Of a DNA stretch of 21,735 nt, positions 2,202 through 15,996 are shown in pieces (positions within the stretch are counted from its first letter, which is position 1; every line of letters starts with the position of its first letter). Both the position numbers and the translations under genes were made by a program. This stretch comes from a virus. Under the pieces are notes generated by a model, which saw only the letters and a list, made by a program, of their open reading frames with translations, was not told where the DNA came from and made no database searches. The stretch spans positions 1 to 21,735 of the IMG/VR virus record IMGVR_UViG_3300023174_000705; one strand, written 5' to 3'.

Positions 2202-3116
2202 TTATTCTTCAGCTGCAATTTTCTTGAAGTAAGACATAACATCTTCGTCATCATCCTCAGCCATTGCTTTTGGAGCAGGTGCTGGTTTAGAAGCAAAGGT
2301 TGGGGCTGCAGCAACTGGACGATCTTCTTGTTCAGCCATCTGAGCAGCAGACTTACCAGAGAAAGTATCACCAGAAAGAACTGCGTCTAGTTTCTTCTTC
2401 AATTCATCATAAGACTTGAAGTTGCTACGATCTGTAAACTCAGACAACTTGTACTGAGCATTAACGATACGAACCAATTCCTCATCGGAATCAGCAGCAG
2501 GACATGGGTCAGAAAACACGGACTCATCGTAGTTAGCATAGCCATCTTTCTTGCGCATACGCAATTTAAAGTTGGCACCTTCCCACAAATCAAACACGTT
2601 TACTGGCTTTTCGTCTTCAAAGGTTGGACGAGCCTTGTCCATAATCTTATCAAAGATTTTCTTGCCGAATTTAAACAAGAATACCTTACCTTCATTCTCG
2701 GGGTGCTTTGGGTCAGACACAATGAGTACGTTGGCAGTGAAAGACAACTTACGCTTTTGTTTACGAGCGATCTCTTTGTTAGCATCAGAACCTGAGTTCC
2801 AAAGCATAGTGTTCAATTCACCGACTGGATCATTTTCACCAAGAGTTGTTAGGGAGTTTTCGATATACCACTTACCAGTTGGACCCTGGAAACCATGGCT
2901 GAAGATACGAACCCATGGGAGTTCATCGCCTTCAACACGTGGTAGGAATCGGAGAGTTGCTGTTCCGTTGCCAGCTTTATCGCCCTCTAGACGCCAGAAG
3001 CGATTGTCGTCATAAGACTTCTTTTCGCCACTTTGTGGGTTAGAGATTTTATCAAATTCTCCAGCGATTTTGCTGAAGTCTTGATTGCGCATTTTACGGA
3101 GTGTTTGAATATCCAT
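2202..3116 (-). CDS. 32: single-stranded DNA-binding protein gp32
   Basis: This 304-residue protein (T4 gp32 has 301) coats ssDNA during replication, recombination and repair. The core matches gp32: NGTATLRFLP near residue 50, FSHGF near 72-76, then FTANVLIVSDP..PENEGKVFLFKFGKKIFDKI (about 126-157), WEGANFKLRMRKKDGYANYDES (about 178-199) and an acidic C-terminal tail (EDDDEDVMSYFKK) that would bind partners such as gp59. The zinc ligands of T4 gp32 (His64, Cys77, Cys87, Cys90) are not conserved: His74 remains, but no Cys occurs in the aligned segment and the only Cys in the protein is Cys205. A ribosome site AAAGGA precedes the ATG. It is last in the gp33-gp59-gp32 transcription order and ends at the terminator. 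Confidence 0.93.
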   Translation of the reverse strand: MDIQTLRKMRNQDFSKIAGEFDKISNPQSGEKKSYDDNRFWRLEGDKAGNGTATLRFLPRVEGDELPWVRIFSHGFQGPTGKWYIENSLTTLGENDPVGELNTMLWNSGSDANKEIARKQKRKLSFTANVLIVSDPKHPENEGKVFLFKFGKKIFDKIMDKARPTFEDEKPVNVFDLWEGANFKLRMRKKDGYANYDESVFSDPCPAADSDEELVRIVNAQYKLSEFTDRSNFKSYDELKKKLDAVLSGDTFSGKSAAQMAEQEDRPVAAAPTFASKPAPAPKAMAEDDDEDVMSYFKKIAAEE

Positions 3117-3365: not shown

Positions 3366-3974
3366 TTAATCTAACTCTTCAACAAAATGTGTAAATATCT
3401 TACGTAGTTTTTCTTTATCGTATTTAACGAATCCAGTCAACTTCTTAATTCGCAATAACTCATTATTCCATATATACTGAACAGTAGGGTTATCAAGCCA
3501 GTGTTCAACGATATGATCAAGTTCATTTACAATTACAAGAGTTTCAATTGAAATTTTGTTACCAAGAAACAACTTTAATGCAGCTGGATATTCATTAAAA
3601 TTAAAATCAAAGATACTAGAAGTTGGTAGTTTATTTATCTCAACATACGTCAATAAAGACGCTAGATCATCAATAAAAATCTTAGTAATACTCTGTTTTC
3701 TTTTATTCCATTCAGCTAGATTATCATCGGCTTCTTGTCCTGCATAAATTGCAGACTCATTACCATAAGCAAAATTTGCAACAAAGAACTGAATGATATC
3801 ACGATCTGAGTTGAACTTCCTTGCCAACTTCTCAAAAATATACCTATCATTTCTCGCTTCAAACGCTTCACGCGAACCTTTAACATTTCCTCGATTTTCA
3901 AAGACGTTAAATTTTTCAGAGGTAAAGTGTAATTTTAAGGCGAGGTAATAGCGATATGCTTTAAATCCGTCCAC
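3366..3974 (-). CDS. 59: gp59-like replicative helicase loader
   Basis: This 202-residue protein (T4 gp59: 217) would load the gp41 helicase onto gp32-coated forks. The all-alpha pattern and signature stretches agree with gp59: an N-terminal GFKAYRYYLALKLHF, then RNDRYIFEKLARKF, FFVANFAYG, a Lys-rich helix after WNKRK, and IWNNELLRIKKLTGF near the C-terminus, matching the WNN..LK segment of T4 gp59. The start is GTG at 3974, with AGGA about 9 nt upstream. It overlaps the upstream small membrane gene by 14 nt. The gene order gp33-gp59-gp32 is that of T4, with one small gene inserted on each side of gp59. Confidence 0.85.
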   Translation of the reverse strand: MDGFKAYRYYLALKLHFTSEKFNVFENRGNVKGSREAFEARNDRYIFEKLARKFNSDRDIIQFFVANFAYGNESAIYAGQEADDNLAEWNKRKQSITKIFIDDLASLLTYVEINKLPTSSIFDFNFNEYPAALKLFLGNKISIETLVIVNELDHIVEHWLDNPTVQYIWNNELLRIKKLTGFVKYDKEKLRKIFTHFVEELD

Positions 3975-4143
3975 TGTTTATTTTCCTACACTCATTCTTA
4001 ACATCAACTGGATAATCTGGGGAAATTTCAGCGAGCCTACAATCATAAACAACTACACCATGACGTGGCATTAATTCAATTACAGTGCCCCATAAAAGAA
4101 TAAAAACGACAATAGATACAACTGCCATTTGTAGGTCAGACAT
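3961..4143 (-). CDS. small single-pass membrane protein between gp33 and gp59
   Basis: This 60-residue protein has one N-terminal transmembrane segment (about residues 6-24, AVVSIVVFILLWGTVIEL) and a polar C-terminal domain with two Cys (residues 35 and 52). The ATG is preceded by GAGG at about 9 nt. It overlaps the end of gp33 by 8 nt and the start of gp59 by 14 nt, so it is embedded in a coupled operon. The family is not recognised. The C-terminal Cys pair could form a disulfide if that part faces the periplasm. Confidence 0.7.
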   Translation of the reverse strand: MSDLQMAVVSIVVFILLWGTVIELMPRHGVVVYDCRLAEISPDYPVDVKNECRKINSGRI

Positions 4144-4375
4144 CTAACTTTGCCCTCTTTGGTAAATAGTTTTCATCTTGGAAGTTCACCTCAAGTTTAT
4201 CCTTGAGTGACTTATTAACAAGTTTTGCAACATCCTCTGGTTCAATAAAGTTTTCTTTACAATATTGGAGGACAGCATCCATATAAGATATCTTTTTATC
4301 GCGCACAATTTGTTCAATGTGCATAGAAAAATCATTTGATGATTTAAACACTTTTCTTGATCCAATATTCAACAT
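4136..4375 (-). CDS. 33: gp33-like late promoter transcription co-activator
   Basis: This 79-residue protein (T4 gp33: 112) bridges host RNA polymerase and the sliding clamp for late transcription, together with sigma gp55. The core HIEQIVRDKKISYMDAVLQY, then CKENFIEPEDVAKLVNKSLKDKLE, aligns with the T4 gp33 segment around GMSYLEATTAFLEENSIPE. The chosen start (ATG at 4375) has AGGA at 8 nt spacing. A longer frame extends to 4474 but would run through the upstream gene and lacks a better ribosome site. The frame overlaps the upstream gene by 32 nt and the downstream membrane protein by 8 nt. The C-terminal hydrophobic-acidic clamp-binding motif of T4 gp33 is not obvious here (the ending is KRAKLDV). 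Confidence 0.8.
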   Translation of the reverse strand: MLNIGSRKVFKSSNDFSMHIEQIVRDKKISYMDAVLQYCKENFIEPEDVAKLVNKSLKDKLEVNFQDENYLPKRAKLDV

Positions 4376-4556
4376 TACGAATTTCCTGACATAATTTAGT
4401 ATATTCAGCAGACTTCTGCTTAAAGAGTTTCCAAACAGGGGTGTTTGGTTTTTCACAGTCCATCTGTTTATCAAATTTGTCTAGATACATTGTAAAGAAC
4501 TTATCTAGTTTCATCTTCTGAACTAGAAGTTCGTGGCGTTTGGTTTTGTAATCCAT
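4344..4556 (-). CDS. small charged hypothetical protein upstream of gp33
   Basis: This 70-residue, helical, charged protein (MDYKTKRHELLVQKMKLDKF, then TPVWKLFKQKSAEYTKLCQE and NVEYWIKKS) is not recognised. The ATG at 4556 lies only 6 nt after a TATAAT box, so a transcript from that promoter would begin at or next to the start codon and carry no ribosome site. An AAGG lies 12 nt upstream but inside the promoter spacer. An internal ATG at 4514 would give a 56-residue protein, but it also lacks a good ribosome site. The C-terminal part overlaps gp33 by 32 nt. Confidence 0.65.
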   Translation of the reverse strand: MDYKTKRHELLVQKMKLDKFFTMYLDKFDKQMDCEKPNTPVWKLFKQKSAEYTKLCQEIRNVEYWIKKSV

Positions 4557-5262: not shown

Positions 5263-5454
5263 TTACCACGAGCCATCATCTAAGATTGCGCGAACAGATA
5301 GTGGACCAATTGTAATGCTACATTGATACATTGCTGGGTCTGTATCATTGGGTCTATCAAATCTATATGCTAATCTCCAATGATATGGATTTATTGCAAA
5401 ATTAATCCACACACCAGAGAATTTTAAATAATCAAGAAAGTTCTTTAATGTCAT
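5263..5454 (-). CDS. small conserved hypothetical phage protein
   Basis: This 63-residue soluble protein has a Trp- and Tyr-rich middle (WINFAINPYHWRLAYRFDRP) and the ending CSITIGPLSVRAILDDGSW. AGGA lies 7 nt before the ATG at 5454. It overlaps the 3' end of the ClpP-like gene by 23 nt in another frame, so it is translated in that operon. It is not assigned to a family. The beta-strand-rich, aromatic composition suggests a small folded domain. Confidence 0.65.
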   Translation of the reverse strand: MTLKNFLDYLKFSGVWINFAINPYHWRLAYRFDRPNDTDPAMYQCSITIGPLSVRAILDDGSW

Positions 5455-5989
5455 CGCAGAGTCCTAGTTTTTTTGCTTCGATTGCGCTTAACCAAATATC
5501 TTGAGGTGGCAATAGAACCTCTCTAATTTTTGCTTCAGATAAACCTGTGCACTTTTTATAGTGTGCAATCATTTTCTTAGTTGTTAAGTCAAATTCTTTG
5601 ACTGTGGCGAAAAGTTCATGTTCTTTACCAAACGCACCCCATGAGTACTGATGACTCAGAATAGAAGTGTTTGGAGTAAGCAAACGATGTCCTTTTGCAC
5701 CAGCAATAAAAATCATAAGTCCAGCTGACGCTACTTGGCCAAGACCGATTGTTCTAACTGGAATTGCTGAACCTTTCATAGTATCAATTAATGCAAATGC
5801 TGCATTAAGATCACCGCCTGGACTTGTAATAATTAAATTAAGTAGTTCTGGTGGTTCTTCAGAGAAGTTTGCTTCAAAGATCCACTCTACCGCAGTTTTA
5901 ACGCTGGTAAGAGTAATCTCCTCCATCAGCAGCATAAAAGAATGCTTTGTTTGTTCTTCCTTCAATTGCAGATTCATCTTTGACATCAT
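5432..5989 (-). CDS. ClpP-like serine protease
   Basis: This 185-residue protein has the ClpP/crotonase-type fold signatures. The oxyanion-type segment is LIITSPGGDLNAAFALIDTM (about 52-71), the nucleophile is Ser88 in GQVASAG, His113 is in ILSHQYSWG, and Asp164 is in PQDIWLSAIEAKKLGL. The spacings (25 and 51 residues) match the ClpP catalytic triad. It would cleave peptides inside a barrel-like oligomer and might pair with host ClpX/ClpA, process phage proteins, or act alone. The start is uncertain: ATGs at 5989, 5986 and 5977 all lack a strong ribosome site. The first 92 nt overlap the end of the SleB-like gene in another frame. Usual ClpP is about 195-200 residues without a propeptide, so the length is normal. 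Confidence 0.85.
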   Translation of the reverse strand: MMSKMNLQLKEEQTKHSFMLLMEEITLTSVKTAVEWIFEANFSEEPPELLNLIITSPGGDLNAAFALIDTMKGSAIPVRTIGLGQVASAGLMIFIAGAKGHRLLTPNTSILSHQYSWGAFGKEHELFATVKEFDLTTKKMIAHYKKCTGLSEAKIREVLLPPQDIWLSAIEAKKLGLCDDIKELS

Positions 5990-6553: not shown

Positions 6554-6829
6554 TCAGGCGGACTTTTTGCTATTAGTCTTTGTATCTAGTGGGATGTTTG
6601 AAACAAAACCATTTAGGGTCTGAGCCTTTGCAATGATATCTGCTTCGGATGGGTAGGCTGGAAATCCTGGATGTTCAGGTAAAGCACCACCATTGATTTT
6701 AGCAACTTCCAGTTGAGCATGCCAACTATTGCTAATTACTTCACGCTTACCGTAGTAGTCATCGTTAAGCATGTCTTTCGCCATTTTTAATAGTTCAAGG
6801 CGAATCTCGAACGGGGTCATATTACTCAT
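6554..6829 (-). CDS. conserved T4-like phage hypothetical protein
   Basis: This 91-residue soluble protein begins MSNMTPFEIRLELLKMAKDM, followed by DDYYGKRE. A later segment PSEADIIAKAQTLNGFVSNI is also characteristic. The TPFEIRLELLKMAKDML start and IIAKA..LN.F segment recur in proteins of unknown function in T4-like phages of aquatic bacteria. A strong ribosome site (AAAGGAG, 7 nt) precedes ATG 6829. Downstream, a terminator hairpin separates it partly from the SleB-like gene. No catalytic motif or membrane segment is visible. Confidence 0.75.
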   Translation of the reverse strand: MSNMTPFEIRLELLKMAKDMLNDDYYGKREVISNSWHAQLEVAKINGGALPEHPGFPAYPSEADIIAKAQTLNGFVSNIPLDTKTNSKKSA

Positions 6830-6912: not shown

Positions 6913-7110
6913 TTATTTCTTCTCTTCAGCCTTCTTCTTCGGAGTTGGCTTCTCAGACTTTGGTGGCGGAGGACAATTACCTTTCTTATCCTTCGTTACA
7001 CAATTAGTTTGTTCTTTTGCAGCAATCTTTTCTGGAGCAGGTTGTTTGGCAGGTTGCGCAAACGATGCAGTCGCGAAAGCCAATGCAACAATAGCAATTA
7101 ATGTTTTCAT
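6913..7110 (-). CDS. small secreted Pro/Lys-rich protein
   Basis: This 65-residue protein has a classical signal peptide: MKTLIAIVALAFATASFA with cleavage expected after SFA (residue 18), leaving a 47-residue mature peptide rich in Pro, Lys and Glu with two Cys (NCVTKDKKGNCPPPPKSEKP). The two Cys, 9 residues apart, could form a disulfide in the periplasm. The ribosome site AAAGGA is 6-7 nt upstream, and the start lies 1 nt after the previous stop. It is not recognised. The composition suggests a disordered periplasmic peptide, perhaps acting on the envelope. A lipobox is absent. Confidence 0.75.
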   Translation of the reverse strand: MKTLIAIVALAFATASFAQPAKQPAPEKIAAKEQTNCVTKDKKGNCPPPPKSEKPTPKKKAEEKK

Positions 7111-7111
7111 A

Positions 7112-7624
7112 TCATTCCTTTATAAAATTAAAAGTAACCTCAGGATAATCATTTTGGAGTCTATCCCAGTTCAACCTCCAATGTACTATACGTTGTCGTT
7201 CAGAATCAGGATTATGATCATGCACTAGCGTATTAGTAAAACTTTCAACAGTGTCCTTGAATATTGAGTCAACCCCATATATGTCAAGTTCAGTAAAATC
7301 ATTTTCACACATAATCTGAGCAGCAACATGACCAGCAGAAAAGAATTCTCTTACATCTGGCATTAAGTCAATAAACAGATTATTGTTTAATATATATTCA
7401 CGAATTTTATATTCATCAGTAGATCGCCATGCTCTGGTTGTAAAAAAGGCTGGGCAAGAAATCAAACTAAGATCTCTTGACCAGCGTTCTATTACATTAC
7501 CATCGAGAATAACAGTAGCGTCTACTTTCGTCCAAGGTATATTGCAGCCAATAGTATAACTATACCCATTACTATTATTAAACCTATTTCTACTTGGACC
7601 ATTGGCAACTACTGCTCCTCTCAT
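7112..7624 (-). CDS. Rossmann-like phage protein with NGPS motif, function unknown
   Basis: This 170-residue protein opens with MRGAVVANGPSRNRF, a beta-strand plus NGPS loop seen in several glycosyltransferase-like and DUF115-type families. It continues with TKVDATVILDGNVIERWSRD (strand-helix), SCPAFFTTRAWRS, FSAGHVAAQIMCEN (helix) and FTELDIYGVDSIF, which looks like a second Rossmann strand with a GVD loop. This layout suggests a nucleotide-sugar or phospho-sugar handling fold, but no catalytic set can be assigned. Its ATG overlaps the GroES-like stop (TAATG) and its stop lies 1 nt before the next ATG, so it is tightly coupled in the operon. Confidence 0.7.
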   Translation of the reverse strand: MRGAVVANGPSRNRFNNSNGYSYTIGCNIPWTKVDATVILDGNVIERWSRDLSLISCPAFFTTRAWRSTDEYKIREYILNNNLFIDLMPDVREFFSAGHVAAQIMCENDFTELDIYGVDSIFKDTVESFTNTLVHDHNPDSERQRIVHWRLNWDRLQNDYPEVTFNFIKE

Positions 7625-7887
7625 TAGTCAACCACTGCAACAATAAATTCTTCTTTAATCATAACACGTTGAGCATCGCCAATCTTAACGACTTGACCTT
7701 TGTTCCATTCCAAATAGATTTTATCACCAACATTAACTGCAGTGACTTCAGATCCTATTGCTAAAACAGTTCCAGTTTTTGAATCGCGATTAGATGTAGT
7801 TCCATCTAAGATAATACCAGACTTAGTTGTTTGATCAACTGAGTTCTCGGCAACCAAAACCATTTTACGTAGTGGTTTAACAATCAT
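7624..7887 (-). CDS. GroES-like co-chaperonin (Cpn10)
   Basis: This 87-residue protein aligns along GroES: IVKPLRKMVLVAENSVDQTTKSGIIL corresponds to the N-terminal strand and mobile loop, with GIIL as the GroEL-binding tripeptide, then KTGTVLAIGSE, VNVGDKIYLEW and the ending MIKEEFIVAVVD. It would cap the host GroEL and adjust the cage for phage proteins, as T4 gp31 does, although it looks closer to bacterial GroES than to gp31. It is about ten residues shorter than GroES. The missing part falls between LAIGSE and VNVGD, where GroES has its roof hairpin. AAGG lies 9 nt before the ATG, and the ATG follows directly on the OMP stop. Confidence 0.85.
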   Translation of the reverse strand: MIVKPLRKMVLVAENSVDQTTKSGIILDGTTSNRDSKTGTVLAIGSEVTAVNVGDKIYLEWNKGQVVKIGDAQRVMIKEEFIVAVVD

Positions 7888-8454
7888 TTAGAATGACCTT
7901 GTATAAGCGATAGTTGTTTGCTTGTTAGCACCATCACCACTTTGTACGTCATATCCAAGGCGGATAGCGTCTTTCTTAGTGATAGCATAACCTACGCTGT
8001 AACGCATAGTTTGGCTAGTATCAGCATTTACATTTGAATCATATGCAGTGCGGAAACGATATGCTACACGAGCACTAAAGTCGCCAAGTTTAGCAGAAAC
8101 ACCTGGCTCTACAGAGTAGTAACCAAAATCAGGTGAACCAGACTTTTGTTTAATACCAGTAGCAATACGAACGTCACCACGGAAAATTTCTGTTACGTTA
8201 TAACCTGGAGTTACACCTACTTCATAACGATTAGTTACAGAACGCGAAATATCAGCAGTTTCAGTATTGATACCTGCATCAACATCCACATTCGTAAATG
8301 CGCGAGTCTTAACAGACATGTTCAATACATGGCTTTGAACTGATGGAGTTGCATCAGTATCTTTAACACCATAAGTCAAAGTTGCTGAGGATTGTGCGTT
8401 AGCAAACGCAGAGAATGCTACTAGTGATGCAGCAGCGATAAGTTTTAATTTCAT
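7888..8454 (-). CDS. outer-membrane beta-barrel protein (porin-like) with signal peptide
   Basis: This 188-residue protein starts with a strong signal peptide, MKLKLIAAASLVAFSAFANA, with cleavage before QSSATLTYGV. This closely resembles the start of betaproteobacterial porins. The mature part alternates polar and hydrophobic residues in strand-like stretches (for example YEVGVTPGYNV, DVRIATGIKQK, GYYSVEPGVSAKLG, FSARVAYRFRTAY, MRYSVGYAI, AIRLGYDVQSG) and ends TTIAYTRSF. The terminal Phe is the usual BamA recognition signal for outer-membrane barrels. The size fits an 8-strand barrel, not a 16-strand general porin. AGGA lies 8 nt before the ATG. It is cotranscribed with the tmRNA upstream and GroES-like gene downstream. 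Possible roles are receptor masking or envelope modification, both inference. Confidence 0.8.
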   Translation of the reverse strand: MKLKLIAAASLVAFSAFANAQSSATLTYGVKDTDATPSVQSHVLNMSVKTRAFTNVDVDAGINTETADISRSVTNRYEVGVTPGYNVTEIFRGDVRIATGIKQKSGSPDFGYYSVEPGVSAKLGDFSARVAYRFRTAYDSNVNADTSQTMRYSVGYAITKKDAIRLGYDVQSGDGANKQTTIAYTRSF

Positions 8455-8489
8455 TTAGTTGTCCTAAAATTAATAAAGGTTAAAAGGTA

Positions 8490-8514
8490 TGGCTGGCACA
8501 CAATGTGGCTGGCA
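8490..8514 (-). repeat. 9-bp direct repeat after the tmRNA
   Basis: TGGCTGGCA occurs at 8490-8498 and 8506-8514 on the + strand (16 nt period). It lies between the tmRNA coding piece and the OMP gene and may mark the unassigned 3' part of the tmRNA precursor. Confidence 0.5.
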
Positions 8515-8522
8515 TAATAAAT

Positions 8523-8687
8523 GGTAGGTTATTCTGTTACGAGGAAACCTACCGAAACCCTAAGCAGTGTTTAGGCTGCTAATGCGAACTGTGCGTCGTT
8601 TGCGTTTACGTTGTTTTAGTTTTTATGTCTTCTCTGACAAGTTGTCCACTTCTGTACTTGTTACCCTGTCGAAACCTAGTCACCCCC
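8523..8687 (-). ncRNA. tmRNA coding piece
   Basis: It begins with the 5' acceptor strand at 8687 and the TTCGAC D-arm analogue. ACAAGT/ACTTGT can form the first pseudoknot stem. The tag frame (8603-8571) is GCA-AAC-GAC...GCC-TAA. Two stems follow. The 3' end is not defined and may run to about 8490. Confidence 0.8.
8571..8603 (-). other. tmRNA tag reading frame, ANDAQFALAA
   Basis: Ten codons from the resume codon GCA to TAA. The tag starts AND and ends ALAA. The terminal LAA is the degron read by ClpXP and ClpAP in bacteria. The tag resembles betaproteobacterial tags such as ANDxxFALAA. Confidence 0.92.
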
Positions 8688-8788
8688 ATCAGAAACATAC
8701 TATGGTGAAATTGACTTACATCGTAGAGGTCACGGCTTACCAATCCTGATCCCAACCTTTCGGTTTTGTAGAGATTTAAGTATGCTTC
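8688..8788 (-). ncRNA. tmRNA intervening (excised) segment
   Basis: The segment joins acceptor and coding pieces. Its ends pair: 8790-8780 with 8700-8690 over 11 bp (one G.U), which extends the acceptor stem and brings both processing sites together. It contains a GAAA-capped hairpin (AACC-GAAA-GGTT). By analogy with known permuted tmRNAs it should be removed, probably by RNase P at G8687 and 3' trimming at 8789. Confidence 0.75.
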
Positions 8789-8852
8789 TGGTGGAGGTGG
8801 GGAGAATCGAACTCCCGTCCAGAATACTTTTCTAGTTGCTTCATACAACCAT
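8789..8852 (-). ncRNA. tmRNA acceptor piece
   Basis: This piece holds the T-arm, the 3' strand of the acceptor stem and an encoded CCA end. Upstream of the T-arm, GUUG and CAAC can form a small hairpin. Its mature 5' end is unknown. The transcript is predicted to begin at about 8852. Confidence 0.8.
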
Positions 8853-8858
8853 ATCACT

Positions 8859-8887
8859 ATTATACATTATATATTACTGCAAGTCAA
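8859..8887 (-). promoter_or_regulatory. sigma70-type promoter P3 for the tmRNA
   Basis: The -35 box TTGACT is at 8887-8882, the spacer is 17 bp and the -10 box TATAAT is at 8864-8859. Predicted start is at 8852. The -35 box overlaps the stop codon of the upstream 2OG oxygenase gene. It lacks the GG before the -10 box that the other promoters share, but keeps the ATG 6 nt after it although the product is not coding. Confidence 0.85.
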
Positions 8888-9363
8888 TTATTTATTCGAA
8901 ATACTAGAGTATATCTATCCGATGATGCTGCAGTTGTGTAATGAATATAATCTATACCACAAGATGCAACTACCATAGTACCCTTTACTGGTCTTATTAA
9001 AACTCCCTGATTTGGAAATACTAACTCACCACCATCAAAATCATCATTTAAAAATATAATTGCACTACGTAGCCATTCTGCAGTCCTAACACCTATACCA
9101 TCTATAATAGAAAAACTATCTGCATGCGGGGAATTAGTTACTCCAGGTTTATACCATAATATAGGTACATTTTTTACTTCAAAATTATATATTTCACATA
9201 TTTTTTTAGAAATATAATGTTCTGTTAAATTTCTTCTCTCTAGGTCATTTACATCACCATATGCAGGCAAATTATTTTTAGAATTTAAAAAATCAGCACC
9301 TTTGATTAAGGTATCACATTCATCATGAGTTAATACATTTGGTATTATTTCAAGTAGTTCCAT
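8884..9363 (-). CDS. 2OG-Fe(II) dioxygenase, prolyl-4-hydroxylase type
   Basis: This 159-residue protein shows the complete facial triad and co-substrate residue: His80-x-Asp82 (SPHADSF), His141 (YIHYTTAASSDR) and Arg150 for the 2-oxoglutarate carboxylate. The strand AIIFLNDDFDGGELVFPNQG, then RPVKGTMVVAS, is typical of P4H-like enzymes. It hydroxylates an unknown protein or small-molecule substrate in the cytoplasm. The ATG follows the exonuclease stop directly, with AAAGGGG about 6 nt upstream. It is the last gene before the tmRNA promoter. Related folds occur at 13244-13837 and 17042-17659, but the sequences are only distantly similar. Confidence 0.85.
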   Translation of the reverse strand: MELLEIIPNVLTHDECDTLIKGADFLNSKNNLPAYGDVNDLERRNLTEHYISKKICEIYNFEVKNVPILWYKPGVTNSPHADSFSIIDGIGVRTAEWLRSAIIFLNDDFDGGELVFPNQGVLIRPVKGTMVVASCGIDYIHYTTAASSDRYTLVFRINN

Positions 9364-10017
9364 TTAAATCCCCTTTAGATTTTTATAATCTAATCTTAAC
9401 TTTCTGAAACCACCAATCCAATTATCTCGTTTTTCAATAAACCAGCGTGGATCATCATTATCAACTGCCATAATAATAACAAGTCTTCCGATTGGAATTC
9501 CTGTTCGCTCTTCAAATGCTACTGCATATGCTGCAGTTTGCATGAAGTAGTTATGAATGTCATCTCTATCTTTTGGTTTACTTGATGTTTTAAAATCTAT
9601 AACACTAAGTTTACCTTGGAACTCTGCGATGCAGTCAACTGTGCCAGCGACTTGTAGGAAGTCAGACCATAATGGAGTTTCCAAGCAGTGTATGTTATCG
9701 ATTTGGTCGAGGAGTGGTCGGATTGAATTGAACATCTCTGCATCAAACATATCTGGCTCAACATGCTCTCCAAGGAGAAAGTCTTCACAGTGTTGATGGA
9801 TTCTTGTACCTCTTGCGCTGGCTCTTCCAGAGATTCGGTTTGCTTCTGCTTCTCCGACTCGTTTTCGCCACTCCATGATTCCCTTCGCTGAGTGCAGTCC
9901 TGTAACTGTTGTAACGGAGGGATAGGATTTACCCGATGGGGTTTTGTATAACCTTGTACCATCGGGTTTTGTGTCACGTTCAAGTTTGCCGAAATCATGA
10001 TGTATAAATGTTTTCAT
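9364..10017 (-). CDS. PD-(D/E)XK (RecB-family) exonuclease
   Basis: This 217-residue protein has the nuclease core in order: GTRIHQHCEDF (70-80), the first acidic residue in GTVDCIAEF (Asp128), the DFK triad in LSVIDFKTSSKPK (Asp141, Lys143) and the QTAAYAVAFEE helix (Gln160, Tyr164) of RecB-like nucleases. It resembles the PDDEXK_1 / MGME1-type exonucleases found in many phages, which degrade ssDNA or DNA ends. The likely role is host DNA breakdown or recombination. The ATG overlaps the preceding stop (TAATG), so it is coupled to the GH19 gene upstream. Confidence 0.85.
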   Translation of the reverse strand: MKTFIHHDFGKLERDTKPDGTRLYKTPSGKSYPSVTTVTGLHSAKGIMEWRKRVGEAEANRISGRASARGTRIHQHCEDFLLGEHVEPDMFDAEMFNSIRPLLDQIDNIHCLETPLWSDFLQVAGTVDCIAEFQGKLSVIDFKTSSKPKDRDDIHNYFMQTAAYAVAFEERTGIPIGRLVIIMAVDNDDPRWFIEKRDNWIGGFRKLRLDYKNLKGI

Positions 10018-10637
10018 TAAGTTAGTAGTTCAATACACTCGTTATAATGTTTAATTCTGTCTTCTAAACCAATGTAACCACCATTAATCTTCTTAGTCAT
10101 TAGTTTAATATCACCTGCATCTGCTTGTACATTTAGTTTATTTTTATTCCAAAACCAAATAGCTGACATCAGAGCAAAGTCACGATCTGCTGTGACCCAA
10201 TCTGGATTCTCGAAAAGATTTTCCCAGTCATCAAACATTTCTTTGGCAAATGCTCGGTAGTTATCTTTACCAGTCAATTGAATTGGTCCACGTCCACGAT
10301 ATTTGTATCCATCGCCAGTTTCTGGACCGCCATTACCCATGCGATTAGCATAGATCTTATTAGCGATCATCTCTGGCTTGCGAGCATATGGTTGAGCAGA
10401 CTCAAGTGTAGGAAAATACTTCTTGAAGATGCTATTCAATCCCTGTGCGGAATAGTTTAGGTTTTCTTCGAATACTGTCCAACCACCAGACTCATGGCCA
10501 CACTGAGCAAGGAATGCTGCAATACGATGTGGTGTATCAATCTCATACGTAGGGAATACATTTGCCATTGACTCTGCCCAAGATTCTGGATCCTGTGCAC
10601 GAGGAAATAGATGTTTGAATTGTTCTGCTGTTATCAT
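10017..10637 (-). CDS. GH19 chitinase-like endolysin
   Basis: This 206-residue protein is a compact glycoside hydrolase family 19 domain: AAFLAQCGHESGGW with catalytic Glu49, FEENLNYS, the IYANRMGNGGPETGDGYKYR segment followed by GRGPIQLTGKDNYR, and ALMSAIWFWNKNKLN near the C-terminus. In phages this family cuts peptidoglycan glycan strands and acts as endolysin. There is no signal peptide, so release would depend on a holin not seen here. AAAGGA precedes the ATG, which overlaps the previous stop by 1 nt. With the SleB-like gene at 5898-6500 the phage carries two cell wall hydrolases of different chemistry. Confidence 0.88.
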   Translation of the reverse strand: MITAEQFKHLFPRAQDPESWAESMANVFPTYEIDTPHRIAAFLAQCGHESGGWTVFEENLNYSAQGLNSIFKKYFPTLESAQPYARKPEMIANKIYANRMGNGGPETGDGYKYRGRGPIQLTGKDNYRAFAKEMFDDWENLFENPDWVTADRDFALMSAIWFWNKNKLNVQADAGDIKLMTKKINGGYIGLEDRIKHYNECIELLT

Positions 10638-11461
10638 TAGTGTTCCTTTAATTTGTAAATTCCATATGTATATATGTCGCCTGATTCTATAAACATATCA
10701 ATGTTATCAAACGCTTGTTTGAATGTAATTTTAGTTACAATTGGATCGGTCTCATAATCTTTTATTGTACAATACCAAAATATATCATCATCATTAAGGA
10801 TTTCTTTTAAATCCATAAAAAACTGATTTAACATTGGAAGATTAGTATTATAATTTCTTCGATTATCAATACTACCAAAAATATTTATTACATCTTCATG
10901 GATAGTTCTATTTTTATTTTCTAAAAAATCAGCAGTATACTCACGAATTTTTACAAATTTAATATCAGGATTTAATTTTAATAATGTATCTGCTATAATA
11001 CGAATTGTTGATTTTGCATCTATAACTGAAACTGCTCTAATTTTTTGTAAAGAATTAGTTATACCATCATAAACATATGGACTACCAGGTGTAAATATAT
11101 AAACTCTATTAAATTTAAGTCTGGTATATTGTTCATCAAGTAAATTAAGTAAAACCTGAACTAAGGTGCTACTATCTCTAAATTTACCTTCAGAATTAGC
11201 GATATCCCAAATACTACCAAAAGTATTAACTATATTACAGTGTAGGGTATCCTCAAATCTATTGAATTCCAGATTATCAAATAATATTTTATGGCCAGCT
11301 GGCGCTGATAAAACATCAGTATTATAATTATTTGGATAATCTATAGTTGTAAGAGCAATACAATCATTACGATTTTTTATATTTTGTACTGTTTCTAAAA
11401 AACTGATAGAAACATCTTCAATACGGCTTGGTATACCAACTCTAACAATTTCATATTTCAT
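10637..11461 (-). CDS. tandem paralogue A, tetrapyrrole-methylase-like motif, function unknown
   Basis: This 274-residue soluble protein is paralogous over its whole length with the next gene upstream (11458-12219). Both share YEI.RVG.P.R..DV..SFL near the N-terminus, FG..WD, and FTPGSPYVYDGITNSLQK (123-140 here) followed by R..SVIDAKSTIRIIA. The GSP loop followed by a strand ending in a small-residue turn faintly resembles the SAM-binding core of tetrapyrrole methylases, but the usual N-terminal glycine loop is not evident. Function is not assigned. The start overlaps the paralogue's stop by 4 nt (ATGA) and the stop overlaps the GH19 start. It is strongly AT-rich. Confidence 0.75.
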   Translation of the reverse strand: MKYEIVRVGIPSRIEDVSISFLETVQNIKNRNDCIALTTIDYPNNYNTDVLSAPAGHKILFDNLEFNRFEDTLHCNIVNTFGSIWDIANSEGKFRDSSTLVQVLLNLLDEQYTRLKFNRVYIFTPGSPYVYDGITNSLQKIRAVSVIDAKSTIRIIADTLLKLNPDIKFVKIREYTADFLENKNRTIHEDVINIFGSIDNRRNYNTNLPMLNQFFMDLKEILNDDDIFWYCTIKDYETDPIVTKITFKQAFDNIDMFIESGDIYTYGIYKLKEH

Positions 11462-12219
11462 AGTTTATATACACCAAACGTAAAAGCATTATTTGTATTT
11501 TTAAATGTATCAATTCCTATTGTAGCATCAGTAAACGACATACATTTTAAATAAGAAGAACCATCTTCTAAAATACTGCAGTATAAAAATTTATCATCTT
11601 TAGAAACAATATTACCCAATACATTAAAATAACTATCAACATTTATACCATAATTTTCAGAAATACATGGAAAAACATGAAGTTTTTTATTTTCTAATTT
11701 TTCTGGTATTGTATTGTGTATAATATATGTCTGTAAATTTAAGTATTCTTTCATATTATTTGCACATATTTTTATTGGTGATTCGCAATCTATAATATTT
11801 AAGGTTCGTTGTGTAGTTAAAATATTAGTTAAATCATCAAAGATAAATGGGCTCCCATTTGTAAACAAATATAACTGTTTATATTTTAACATATTATATT
11901 GCATATCAAAAAACTCTAATAATTTTGAAACGGATTCATTTGGTGTTGACGCACCGAGACGATCCCAAACATCACCAAAACAATTTAACACATTAGGTTT
12001 TAGATTAATATCAACATTATATGTTTGTAGGGTATCAAATATTAACCGATATCCATATGGAGCAGTTGAATATTCAAAACTTGATTTACTAAAATCTACA
12101 GTAACTAATCCAATTGCATCTTTAGAAGTTTTAATATGTTGAATACTATCTAAGAATGATTGAGTAACATCCTGTTTTCTTGCTGGGACACCAACTCTAA
12201 TTATCTCATATGATATCAC
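11458..12219 (-). CDS. tandem paralogue B, tetrapyrrole-methylase-like motif, function unknown
   Basis: This 253-residue protein is the sister of the gene at 10637-11461. Matching stretches include SYEIIRVGVPARKQDVTQSF, NCFGDVWDRLG, LYLFTNGSPFIFDDLTNIL (117-135), RTLNIIDCESPIKICA and the ending FTFGVYKL (YTYGIYKL in the other). It starts with GTG at 12219, overlapping the PhoH stop by 4 nt (GTGA). No signal peptide or membrane segment is seen. The two copies have diverged strongly, so the duplication is not recent. Function is not assigned. The methylase-like resemblance is weak and needs profile comparison. Confidence 0.75.
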   Translation of the reverse strand: MISYEIIRVGVPARKQDVTQSFLDSIQHIKTSKDAIGLVTVDFSKSSFEYSTAPYGYRLIFDTLQTYNVDINLKPNVLNCFGDVWDRLGASTPNESVSKLLEFFDMQYNMLKYKQLYLFTNGSPFIFDDLTNILTTQRTLNIIDCESPIKICANNMKEYLNLQTYIIHNTIPEKLENKKLHVFPCISENYGINVDSYFNVLGNIVSKDDKFLYCSILEDGSSYLKCMSFTDATIGIDTFKNTNNAFTFGVYKL

Positions 12220-14449: not shown

Positions 14450-14736
14450 ACCATGAGCATTCTAATTAGACCAAATGTGTCAATAGAAGTTAGCAAGATA
14501 TAGTTAGCCAGCATGCCAAATGATTTCCGAGTATAACTAGCCCAAGCATACATGGCACAACCACTAATCCACACAGGATAAAGAGCCAGAAGAGGAGGAT
14601 TTGGGACTGTAAGTGCCATGGTAATTGAACACCCAATACTAACAGCCCAAGCCAACAACTCAACAGCAAAGCGAATGCGATTAGAACGGTAATCATCTTT
14701 TATCCATTGTAAAGTAGGTGCAAAAATATCAAGCAT
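14446..14736 (-). CDS. small multi-pass membrane protein
   Basis: This 96-residue protein has about three hydrophobic segments: FAVELLAWAVSIGCSITMAL, LLALYPVWISGCAMYAWASY and MLANYILLTSIDTFGLIRML. The motif YPVWISGCAMYAWASYTRKS looks loosely like half of a PnuC or SWEET-type bundle, but the assignment is not secure. I chose ATG 14736, overlapping the HAD stop by 8 nt. The longer frame begins with TTG at 14760. GGGT is the only upstream purine tract. Confidence 0.65.
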   Translation of the reverse strand: MLDIFAPTLQWIKDDYRSNRIRFAVELLAWAVSIGCSITMALTVPNPPLLALYPVWISGCAMYAWASYTRKSFGMLANYILLTSIDTFGLIRMLMV

Positions 14737-15253
14737 AAGAACCCATCGAATCCCATCCAAATTTTAATGCGTGTAATCCGTTAATTCCACGAATTGTATC
14801 ATGAATTTGTTGAATAGAATCAGAAGATTTTGTGTGCAGAATACCATGACCACCTTTAACATTAAAGGGATTGATACAACCAGTAGAATCATCAACTAAA
14901 ATTGCTCTATCATGAGCAAAATTGGCTTTTTCTTGTTTTGCACGAACAAAATTGGCTTTGTAAGGAATATTATGTTTGTGTAACCAGTATAATTTCTGTG
15001 TTTTTGCTTCATGACCTTGCAATTCATCATAAGTACCCATTGAAGTCAAAATTTCAATGTTTATATCTTCAAGTTTAGCAACATAATCAAGCAATACATG
15101 AGCATCATGCATAAATTCAAGGTCTTCAAAGATTTTATGCATGAAAACAGCTTCACGAAACTTCTTTCGATCAGCTTTTTCGGGATCAAATGCTCTATAT
15201 GCTTTGTCAAAGTTGCAAAGCACGCCATCCATGTCTAAGTATAGTGTAATCAT
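14729..15253 (-). CDS. HAD-superfamily phosphatase / 5'(3')-nucleotidase-like
   Basis: This 174-residue protein has the HAD nucleophile motif at its very start, MITLYLDMDGVLCNFDKAYR (Asp7, Asp9). It has motif II in IEILTSM (Thr), a Lys in the RAKQEKANFA region, and motif III in AILVDDSTGCINPF. The compact cap resembles deoxynucleotidases (NT5C type) that dephosphorylate nucleoside monophosphates, which fits phage nucleotide metabolism next to MazG. Because the DxD strand begins at residue 3, the ATG at 15253 must be the true start. It lies exactly 6 nt after TATAAT, so the transcript from promoter P4 would be leaderless. Confidence 0.85.
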   Translation of the reverse strand: MITLYLDMDGVLCNFDKAYRAFDPEKADRKKFREAVFMHKIFEDLEFMHDAHVLLDYVAKLEDINIEILTSMGTYDELQGHEAKTQKLYWLHKHNIPYKANFVRAKQEKANFAHDRAILVDDSTGCINPFNVKGGHGILHTKSSDSIQQIHDTIRGINGLHALKFGWDSMGSYA

Positions 15254-15259
15254 ATCAAT

Positions 15260-15288
15260 ATTATACCTGACTTTTTGATTAAAGTCAA
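15260..15288 (-). promoter_or_regulatory. sigma70-type promoter P4
   Basis: The -35 box TTGACT is at 15288-15283, the spacer is 17 bp and ends in GG, and the -10 box TATAAT is at 15265-15260. The predicted start is the A of the HAD gene ATG (15253). It lies right after the MazG-like stop. Confidence 0.87.
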
Positions 15289-15289
15289 G

Positions 15290-15664
15290 TTATTTAACGA
15301 ATTTTGCAAAATTAGGTGGTTTCCAACCCTCTGGCTTCATAATTTTACCATCTTCACGACGAATAACCATGCCAGTGATAGGGTCAATCTTAATTAAATT
15401 AGATTTTGCGCCTTCATCCCATGCTGCTTCACAATCCCAGCCACGAGATTTCATATAACCGATGATAACCCACATCATATCAAAACAAGCATCGAGCTGT
15501 TCAGCGTCATTATCTTCTGCCAATGCTTCTCTGAACTCATTATATTCTTCCTGAATAAGTTTTAGATATAATTTTGAAAGATCGTTCTGCGGGACAGGGG
15601 TGTTAGCATGTTTTTGACCGCATGCTGCAAGAAATACTTCTACATCAGTAAATGTTTTGCTCAT
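15290..15664 (-). CDS. MazG-like nucleotide pyrophosphohydrolase
   Basis: This 124-residue all-alpha NTP pyrophosphatase has KLIQEEYNEFREALAEDNDA (metal-binding Glu39, Glu40, Glu43) and QLDACFDMMWVIIGYMKSRG with the second acidic helix, then the conserved tail NLIKIDPITGMVIRREDGK, followed by PEGWKPPNF. The tail is typical of phage members of the HisE/MazG group. It hydrolyses NTPs or (p)ppGpp-like nucleotides. The ATG overlaps the preceding stop by 4 nt (ATGA). Promoter P4 lies just after its stop. Confidence 0.85.
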   Translation of the reverse strand: MSKTFTDVEVFLAACGQKHANTPVPQNDLSKLYLKLIQEEYNEFREALAEDNDAEQLDACFDMMWVIIGYMKSRGWDCEAAWDEGAKSNLIKIDPITGMVIRREDGKIMKPEGWKPPNFAKFVK

Positions 15665-15996
15665 TTGTTTCTTTCTGTATCAAAATAGTATTGTGAATGA
15701 AGATTTCCTGCTCCGCTAGATTCTATATCAGAACCTGCGCCAGCGAATGGCCAATTATTATTTGGTAAATCAGGATTAGTAATGTTTAAATCCTGCGGAG
15801 TGTAAAACTCTTCAGTATTCCATTCTCCTTCATTTTCAAAATCATTAACAAAATCAAGATTACCATCAAAGACAAACCCTACTCCCTTTAGAAATAGTTC
15901 TACTTCAGATAAAACATCTGGTAAATGATCTACTTCAAATTCACGAGTGGTTTTTGAACCACCATACGTATCTTCAGCTATTAGGGTGTATTTCAT
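15661..15996 (-). CDS. hypothetical phage protein, acidic
   Basis: This 111-residue protein starts at ATG 15996 (MKYTLIAEDTYGGSKTTREF), with AAGGA about 9 nt upstream. A TTG at 16002 would add two residues. The first 50 residues look like a beta-strand/helix domain (FEVDHLPDVLSEVELFLKGV), followed by an acidic, Asn/Pro-rich, probably disordered tail. It overlaps the AbrB-like gene by 23 nt and MazG by 4 nt. The family is not recognised. Confidence 0.7.
   Translation of the reverse strand: MKYTLIAEDTYGGSKTTREFEVDHLPDVLSEVELFLKGVGFVFDGNLDFVNDFENEGEWNTEEFYTPQDLNITNPDLPNNNWPFAGAGSDIESSGAGNLHSQYYFDTERNK

Follow-up and report, generated by a model that had tools for sequence, protein, structure and literature searches.

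Background

Outer-membrane barrels encoded by phages are exemplified by Lom of lambda, which is of the Ail/OmpX kind with 8 strands, and by the Lc porin of phage PA-2, which has 16; both change the surface of the host, and the phages that carry them are temperate. To our knowledge, most phage genes reported to remodel the outer membrane of the host come from temperate enterobacterial phages, and we know of no link between phage barrels of the Lom or Lc type and a tmRNA.

In the Methylophilales phage Melnitz, genes follow the T4-like order PhoH, nuclease, permuted tmRNA, gp33, gp59 and gp32. The same order is found in the DNA analyzed here, from which Melnitz differs in having no barrel between the tmRNA and gp33. 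In the same module of Melnitz, csgF-csgG, an outer-membrane pore pair, is located just past gp32 (14732-15996 of locus L195). Permuted tmRNAs are already known in aquatic phages; PMC9004378 counts 53 two-piece forms among 133 unique phage tmRNA structures and places the Melnitz tmRNA in the alphaproteobacterial type. Phage outer-membrane proteins and permuted phage tmRNAs are therefore not new in themselves; what appears to be new is the barrel family described below and the slot that it occupies beside a tmRNA. No report of either was found in the literature, among open-licence papers judged by title and the start of the abstract.

Organization of the locus

The window, that is, the whole stretch of 21,735 nucleotides analyzed (positions 1 to 21,735 of IMG/VR virus record IMGVR_UViG_3300023174_000705), contains in order PhoH, an endolysin, an exonuclease, the tmRNA, the barrel, GroES with other cargo, gp33, gp59 and gp32 (Table 1). 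The barrel gene is the first in an interval of cargo that has a conserved landmark on either side. The gp32 of the window is closest to those of Pelagibacter phage HTVC008M and of Melnitz (about 52%), both of which are filed under Kyanoviridae. An earlier note on this DNA had called the gene phage-encoded, and the T4-like genes on both sides of it agree with that statement.

Table 1. Positions of the features of the barrel locus within the window
Feature	Position	Strand	Evidence and remarks
gp32-like ssDNA-binding protein	2202..3116	minus	phrog_224
gp59-like helicase loader	3366..3974	minus	phrog_269
gp33-like late-transcription regulator, conserved right edge of cargo interval	4136..4474	minus	phrog_254; same order in Melnitz
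Cell-wall hydrolase (endolysin family), N-terminal hydrophobic segment	5898..6500	minus	Hydrolase_2 84.5 bits; phrog_938 endolysin; 15/42 clusters
91-aa conserved phage protein, no PHROG	6554..6829	minus	16/42 clusters
65-aa secreted Lys/Pro-rich protein	6913..7110	minus	ORF; homologues in 6/42 clusters
170-aa protein, no family match in Pfam, NCBIfam, PHROGs	7112..7624	minus	homologues in 4/42 clusters
GroES-like co-chaperonin	7624..7887	minus	Cpn10 52.4 bits vs cut-off 21.1; phrog_3188; ATG abuts barrel stop codon
Outer-membrane beta-barrel gene (predicted)	7888..8454	minus (ATG at 8454, stop at 7888)	single ORF of 188 aa with exactly these coordinates
Signal peptide, residues 1-20	8395..8454	minus	read from sequence; predicted cut after Ala20 (ANA/Q)
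AGGAC, likely ribosome-binding site	8461..8465	minus	read from sequence; 6 nt before barrel ATG
Permuted (two-piece) tmRNA	8480..8881 (Rfam span 8515-8901)	minus	ARAGORN; RF01850 134.5 bits, RF04321 127.4 bits
tmRNA tag frame ANDAQFALAA-stop	8571..8603	minus	ARAGORN and sequence
Sigma-70-type promoter TTGACT-17-TATAAT of tmRNA	8859..8887	minus	11/12 consensus
Exonuclease, conserved on the other side of the tmRNA	9364..10017	minus	phrog_298
GH19 endolysin	10017..10637	minus	profile match

Two different muralytic enzymes flank the barrel, the GH19 endolysin on one side and the Hydrolase_2-type enzyme on the other. Further out, two adjacent minus-strand genes (10637-11461 and 11458-12219) encode proteins whose N-termini look alike by eye; these are likely tandem paralogues and have no significant family match. 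Secreted proteins near the tmRNA locus in L039, L043, L045 and L121 presumably resemble TctC/Bug periplasmic solute-binding proteins.

The barrel gene and its protein

Conservation was computed on 42 clusters of barrel sequences (90% identity). The Sec-type signal peptide read from the sequence is MKLKLIAAASLVAFSAFANA, with Ala at position -1 of the predicted cut, and this Ala20 is invariant in 42/42 clusters. A C-terminal Phe was found in 77/77 barrel loci examined, Tyr is present at -5 from the C-terminus in 41 of the 42 clusters, and Cys is absent from all 42. The strand alternation of the window barrel (24.5) exceeds that of 2000/2000 within-strand shuffles (mean 13.4, sd 3.1). Compared with the nearest relatives (75-92% DNA identity), dN/dS is 0.11-0.17, a value that points to purifying selection. 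Signal peptide, terminal Phe, alternation and low dN/dS together imply that this open reading frame is a selected gene and not a chance one. The clean signal peptide, strand-like alternation and terminal Phe that the earlier note had listed are all borne out by these figures.

Predicted fold and family identity

The AlphaFold2 model built with an alignment of 15 family sequences is a ten-stranded barrel with no other domain (pLDDT 84.9, pTM 0.76). From the barrel sequence alone the model had no confidence (pLDDT 32); the fold prediction thus rests on the alignment. The best match among solved structures is OpcA of Neisseria meningitidis (PDB 1k24; Z 20.9, rmsd 2.0, 168 residues aligned), followed by a Legionella Dot/Icm porin (Z 19.9), a designed 10-stranded barrel (Z 17.9) and Pla/OmpT (Z 15.5-18); NanC and KdgM, channels for acidic oligosaccharides, match at Z 11-13. 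Sequence and prediction together give the protein the features of the broad class of bacterial outer-membrane beta-barrels: a Sec signal, a closed even-numbered barrel with in/out alternation and a C-terminal Phe. The earlier view of an exported outer-membrane beta-barrel is upheld by the predicted structure and the fold matches, and we regard the barrel identity as very probable; the estimate of about 8 strands gives way to the ten predicted.

OpcA, Pla and OmpT share ten strands with the window barrel, and the alignments extend over 164-178 residues. Their chains, however, are 225-317 residues long, compared with about 168 in the mature window protein, and the identity is 6-12%. For OpcA it is 8% in the structure alignment; neither an OpcA chain nor an omptin match appeared in the PDB profile search, and there was no OpcA match in Pfam. 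OpcA and the omptins have long outer loops.

At the sequence level the window barrel falls below every Pfam and NCBIfam cut-off and has no significant PHROG; the Porin_4 profile gives 12.2 bits where the cut-off is 27. The 15 aligned members give mostly weak matches to barrel families, the best being Porin_4 at 26.3 bits, just under the same cut-off. Some of the sub-threshold matches of the window protein are to unrelated families, such as SLFN_AlbA_2 (E 0.006). Taken by themselves, such matches would also fit another secreted beta-rich protein that is not a barrel. The confident barrel model, the predominance of barrels among the top matches and the terminal Phe of all 77 loci make that reading very improbable.

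Several known types were considered within the barrel class. A general porin (Porin_4) was rejected on the curated cut-off and on the ten predicted strands, general porins being 16-stranded barrels with a constriction loop. The number of strands fits an omptin protease, the catalysis of which uses conserved Asp/His residues, but no His is suitably conserved: it exceeds 14/42 clusters in no alignment column, and the mature protein lacks His altogether in 5/42 clusters. The 8-stranded OmpA, OmpW and Ail-Lom types were also rejected because ten strands are predicted.

Distribution of the family

In a first scan of viral contigs, 43 candidate stretches yielded 27 confirmed barrel relatives; the profile scan confirmed 191/193, of which the best 80 were kept. 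Each of 14 whole records holds exactly one copy. No bacterial relative was confirmed among 18 candidates from the genome collection, in a pattern-limited search that can miss distant bacterial kin, and none was found in plasmids. The earlier proposal of gain from a bacterial host accordingly found no backing within the reach of that search. In tblastn against 50,697 named-phage records, neither the window barrel with three diverged members nor one short barrel of the second family described below had a match. The top BFVD match, uncultured Caudovirales A0A6J5TAD3 (Foldseek TM 0.85, 35% identity, same length), belongs to the same family and is already deposited under the automatic name 'Porin domain-containing protein'.

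The tmRNA beside the barrel

In the window, the tmRNA sits directly upstream of the barrel on the same strand. It fits the betaproteobacterial type (Rfam beta_tmRNA, 134.5 bits vs cut-off 84) and carries CCA, an alanine-type G-U third acceptor pair and an AND...ALAA tag. The betaproteobacterial host suggested earlier thus gains independent support from the adjacent RNA. In close phages the middle of the tag varies (ANDAQF, ANDSQF, ANDELF, ANDSVY...ALAA) while both ends are constant; a pattern for the tags ANDSQF/ANDAQF matched 0 stretches in the genome collection. A ClpP-like protease gene (5432-5989, minus strand; phrog_94 and phrog_1827) is located near the tmRNA; having both a tag RNA and such a protease, a phage might in principle be able to label proteins and break them down on its own.

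Linkage was counted in both directions. Starting from the barrel, 4 of the 42 clusters had less than 400 nt upstream and were left out, and tmRNAs were called by ARAGORN, with Rfam coordinates used where ARAGORN found none. Among the 38 testable clusters, the tmRNA lies directly upstream on the same strand in 18, upstream with one gene between in 5, further upstream in 2 and directly downstream in 1; 12 have no tmRNA in the locus. All tmRNAs found in barrel loci share the strand of the barrel. A permuted tmRNA is present in 8 of the 14 whole records, including all 7 longer than 100 kb; it is about 18 kb from the barrel in L068, and in L059 it is on the opposite strand at a distance of about 115 kb.

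For the count from the tmRNA side, 90 stretches fitted a T-arm pattern; 80 of them were examined, and 69 had at least 1 kb downstream. A barrel lies directly behind the tmRNA in 36 of these 69 loci (17 of the same family as that of the window, 19 of a second, shorter family); 3 carry a window-type barrel about 1.4 kb further on, and 30 carry neither. A barrel upstream of the tmRNA or on the other strand was seen in 0/80 loci. The barrel found about 1.4 kb on is a diverged one in L123 and L158, where the gene for a hydrophobic protein that probably spans the membrane lies between it and the tmRNA; L126 also has a diverged barrel, equally far from the tmRNA.

When mapped on the barrel tree, direct linkage turns up in every deep branch and requires 11 changes (mean after shuffling 13.8, 37/500 shuffles as low), and absence of linkage is clustered (5 changes, 0/500 as low). 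When up to 2 mismatches were allowed, 7 of the 18 directly linked clusters showed a promoter near the start of the tmRNA, against a background of 188/3600. Between tmRNA and barrel, 6 of these clusters, all diverged, have terminator-like hairpins of 7-11 bp, 2 have weak 5-bp hairpins and 10, including the window, have none; nor was a terminator-like site found on the minus strand of the window between 7000 and 9400. Co-transcription of tmRNA and barrel is therefore not general, since terminator-like hairpins separate them in 6/18 clusters. As judged from the sequences, it is likely in the clade of the window and unlikely in the diverged clusters.

An operon may also be unnecessary to explain the linkage. 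The neighborhood of the tmRNA could simply be a permissive insertion spot, with no functional or regulatory tie, and the linkage could reflect shared descent. In other loci this spot is taken by the shorter barrel, by GroES on its own or by different genes, and both the hairpins just described and the distant tmRNA of L059 would be expected under this explanation. On the other hand, the barrel was on the same strand and downstream of the tmRNA in 36/36 direct cases, and the 11 changes over all deep branches are little fewer than in shuffled trees; for this reason the linkage is not one inherited block. We give the permissive spot slightly less than an even chance. It competes with the operon step and not with a role at the cell surface, and its odds overlap those of the best explanation.

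A swappable slot and a second barrel family

From the upstream stretch through the tmRNA to T-arm +274, L125 and L149 share 95% identity. Past this point L149 lacks exactly the short barrel, and identity with L125 resumes at GroES (87%). L148 and L130 repeat this pattern of presence and absence. The short barrel is also found in L137 and L179 where L162, which is 93% identical across the tmRNA, has the long one; downstream, the sequences are homologous again. Because near-identical phages differ by the presence or the type of barrel, the gene is dispensable cargo and its two kinds are interchangeable. An accessory slot for the barrel behind the tmRNA is thus highly probable.

The second family comprises proteins of 147-154 aa (14 distinct sequences aligned). 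Two of the three members scanned pass curated barrel cut-offs, one for OmpA_membrane, Opacity, YfaZ and Porin_4 and the other for OMP_b-brl. When the two families were compared with hhalign, only 56 columns were aligned (signal and first strands), and hmmsearch gave E values of 1e-3 to 1e-5 in a few members.

Lumen, loops and possible function

The inward face of the barrel is more conserved (0.70) than the outward face and loops (0.57-0.58) across the 42 clusters. R76, E78, R96, K102, E116, R133, R135, R151 and D169 are invariant or nearly invariant inward residues. Part of the conservation seen at E116, R133 and R135 comes from the search itself, because the profile demanded 'YYSVEPG' or 'YRYR'-like stretches; that at R76, E78, R151, D169 and F188 is independent of these stretches. 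The 64 inward positions include 9 Arg and 5 Lys vs 4 Asp and 3 Glu, so that the lumen is basic. The five outer loops have 3-9 residues and change little in length. In the model, the barrel would be narrow, its lumen filled by salt bridges among charged residues of both signs. A wide porin or a loop-variable adhesin is unlikely in view of the invariant, mostly charged residues along the lumen and of outer loops that are short and vary little. The description of the protein as porin-like in the earlier note finds no support, either in this narrow, charged lumen or in the low Porin_4 score.

Our main reading, to which we assign a probability of roughly 0.5, is that this phage, T4-like and with a betaproteobacterial host, encodes a small accessory outer-membrane barrel that alters the infected cell's surface, most likely for superinfection exclusion. 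With no terminator between, the window barrel would be read through from the host-type sigma-70 promoter of the tmRNA, and on that account its production may start early, once the DNA has entered the cell, and reach high levels. The protein would then be exported by Sec, folded and inserted by the host BAM complex, and would change the cell surface by displacing, pairing with or blocking a host surface protein used by competing phages. The short, constant outer loops make a decoy loop less plausible than displacement of such a protein or pairing with it.

The accessory status, the swap partner of the same kind and the host-type promoter make a change of the surface the most likely role, and competition fits better than a core role because the barrel is an accessory, interchangeable membrane protein. 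Superinfection exclusion as the main function is held more tentatively, at somewhat less than even odds; masking against superinfection, one of the roles suggested in the earlier note, is thus our leading candidate. The loops speak against a surface role: in the model they span only 3-9 residues and hardly vary in length, which is not what diversifying selection on a surface would lead one to expect, and the conserved residues face the lumen.

The same basic lumen, together with the fold matches to NanC and KdgM, raises the main rival to a surface change, a narrow selective channel that alters permeability, for example by letting anionic nutrients in while host porin synthesis is off. NanC and KdgM, however, have 12 strands, ten strands make a narrow barrel, and the nine conserved charged residues, which are of both signs, point to a lumen filled with salt bridges. 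We consider such a channel unlikely.

The position of the window barrel between two muralytic enzymes, with a small secreted protein nearby and a hydrolase near the barrel in 15/42 clusters, would also suit a protein that weakens or disrupts the outer membrane late in infection and so aids lysis. The nearest promoter is nevertheless of host type, and the late-promoter motif TATAAATA is absent within 120 nt of the barrel ATG in 18/18 linked clusters. Near-identical phages without the barrel do not need it to lyse, which makes a contribution to lysis less likely still, and we hold it to be improbable.

Implications

Returning to the altered cell surface, the most far-reaching form of that reading is that T4-like betaproteobacterial phages keep a dedicated, swappable barrel slot behind their own tmRNA, the host-type promoter of which would coat the cell early with a lumen-plugged barrel, ten-stranded or shorter. 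This would be a surface-immunity device of lytic phages, linked within a single operon to ribosome rescue and GroES. As a whole we regard this picture as speculative and rather unlikely.

The barrel family is widespread in T4-like phages, lies outside Pfam, PHROGs and NCBIfam at their cut-offs, and has a precise address beside the tmRNA. The natural pairs with and without the barrel (L125/L149) and with one kind swapped for the other (L137/L162) make its role directly testable. The tmRNA address may also help to annotate other phage membrane proteins that lack annotation.
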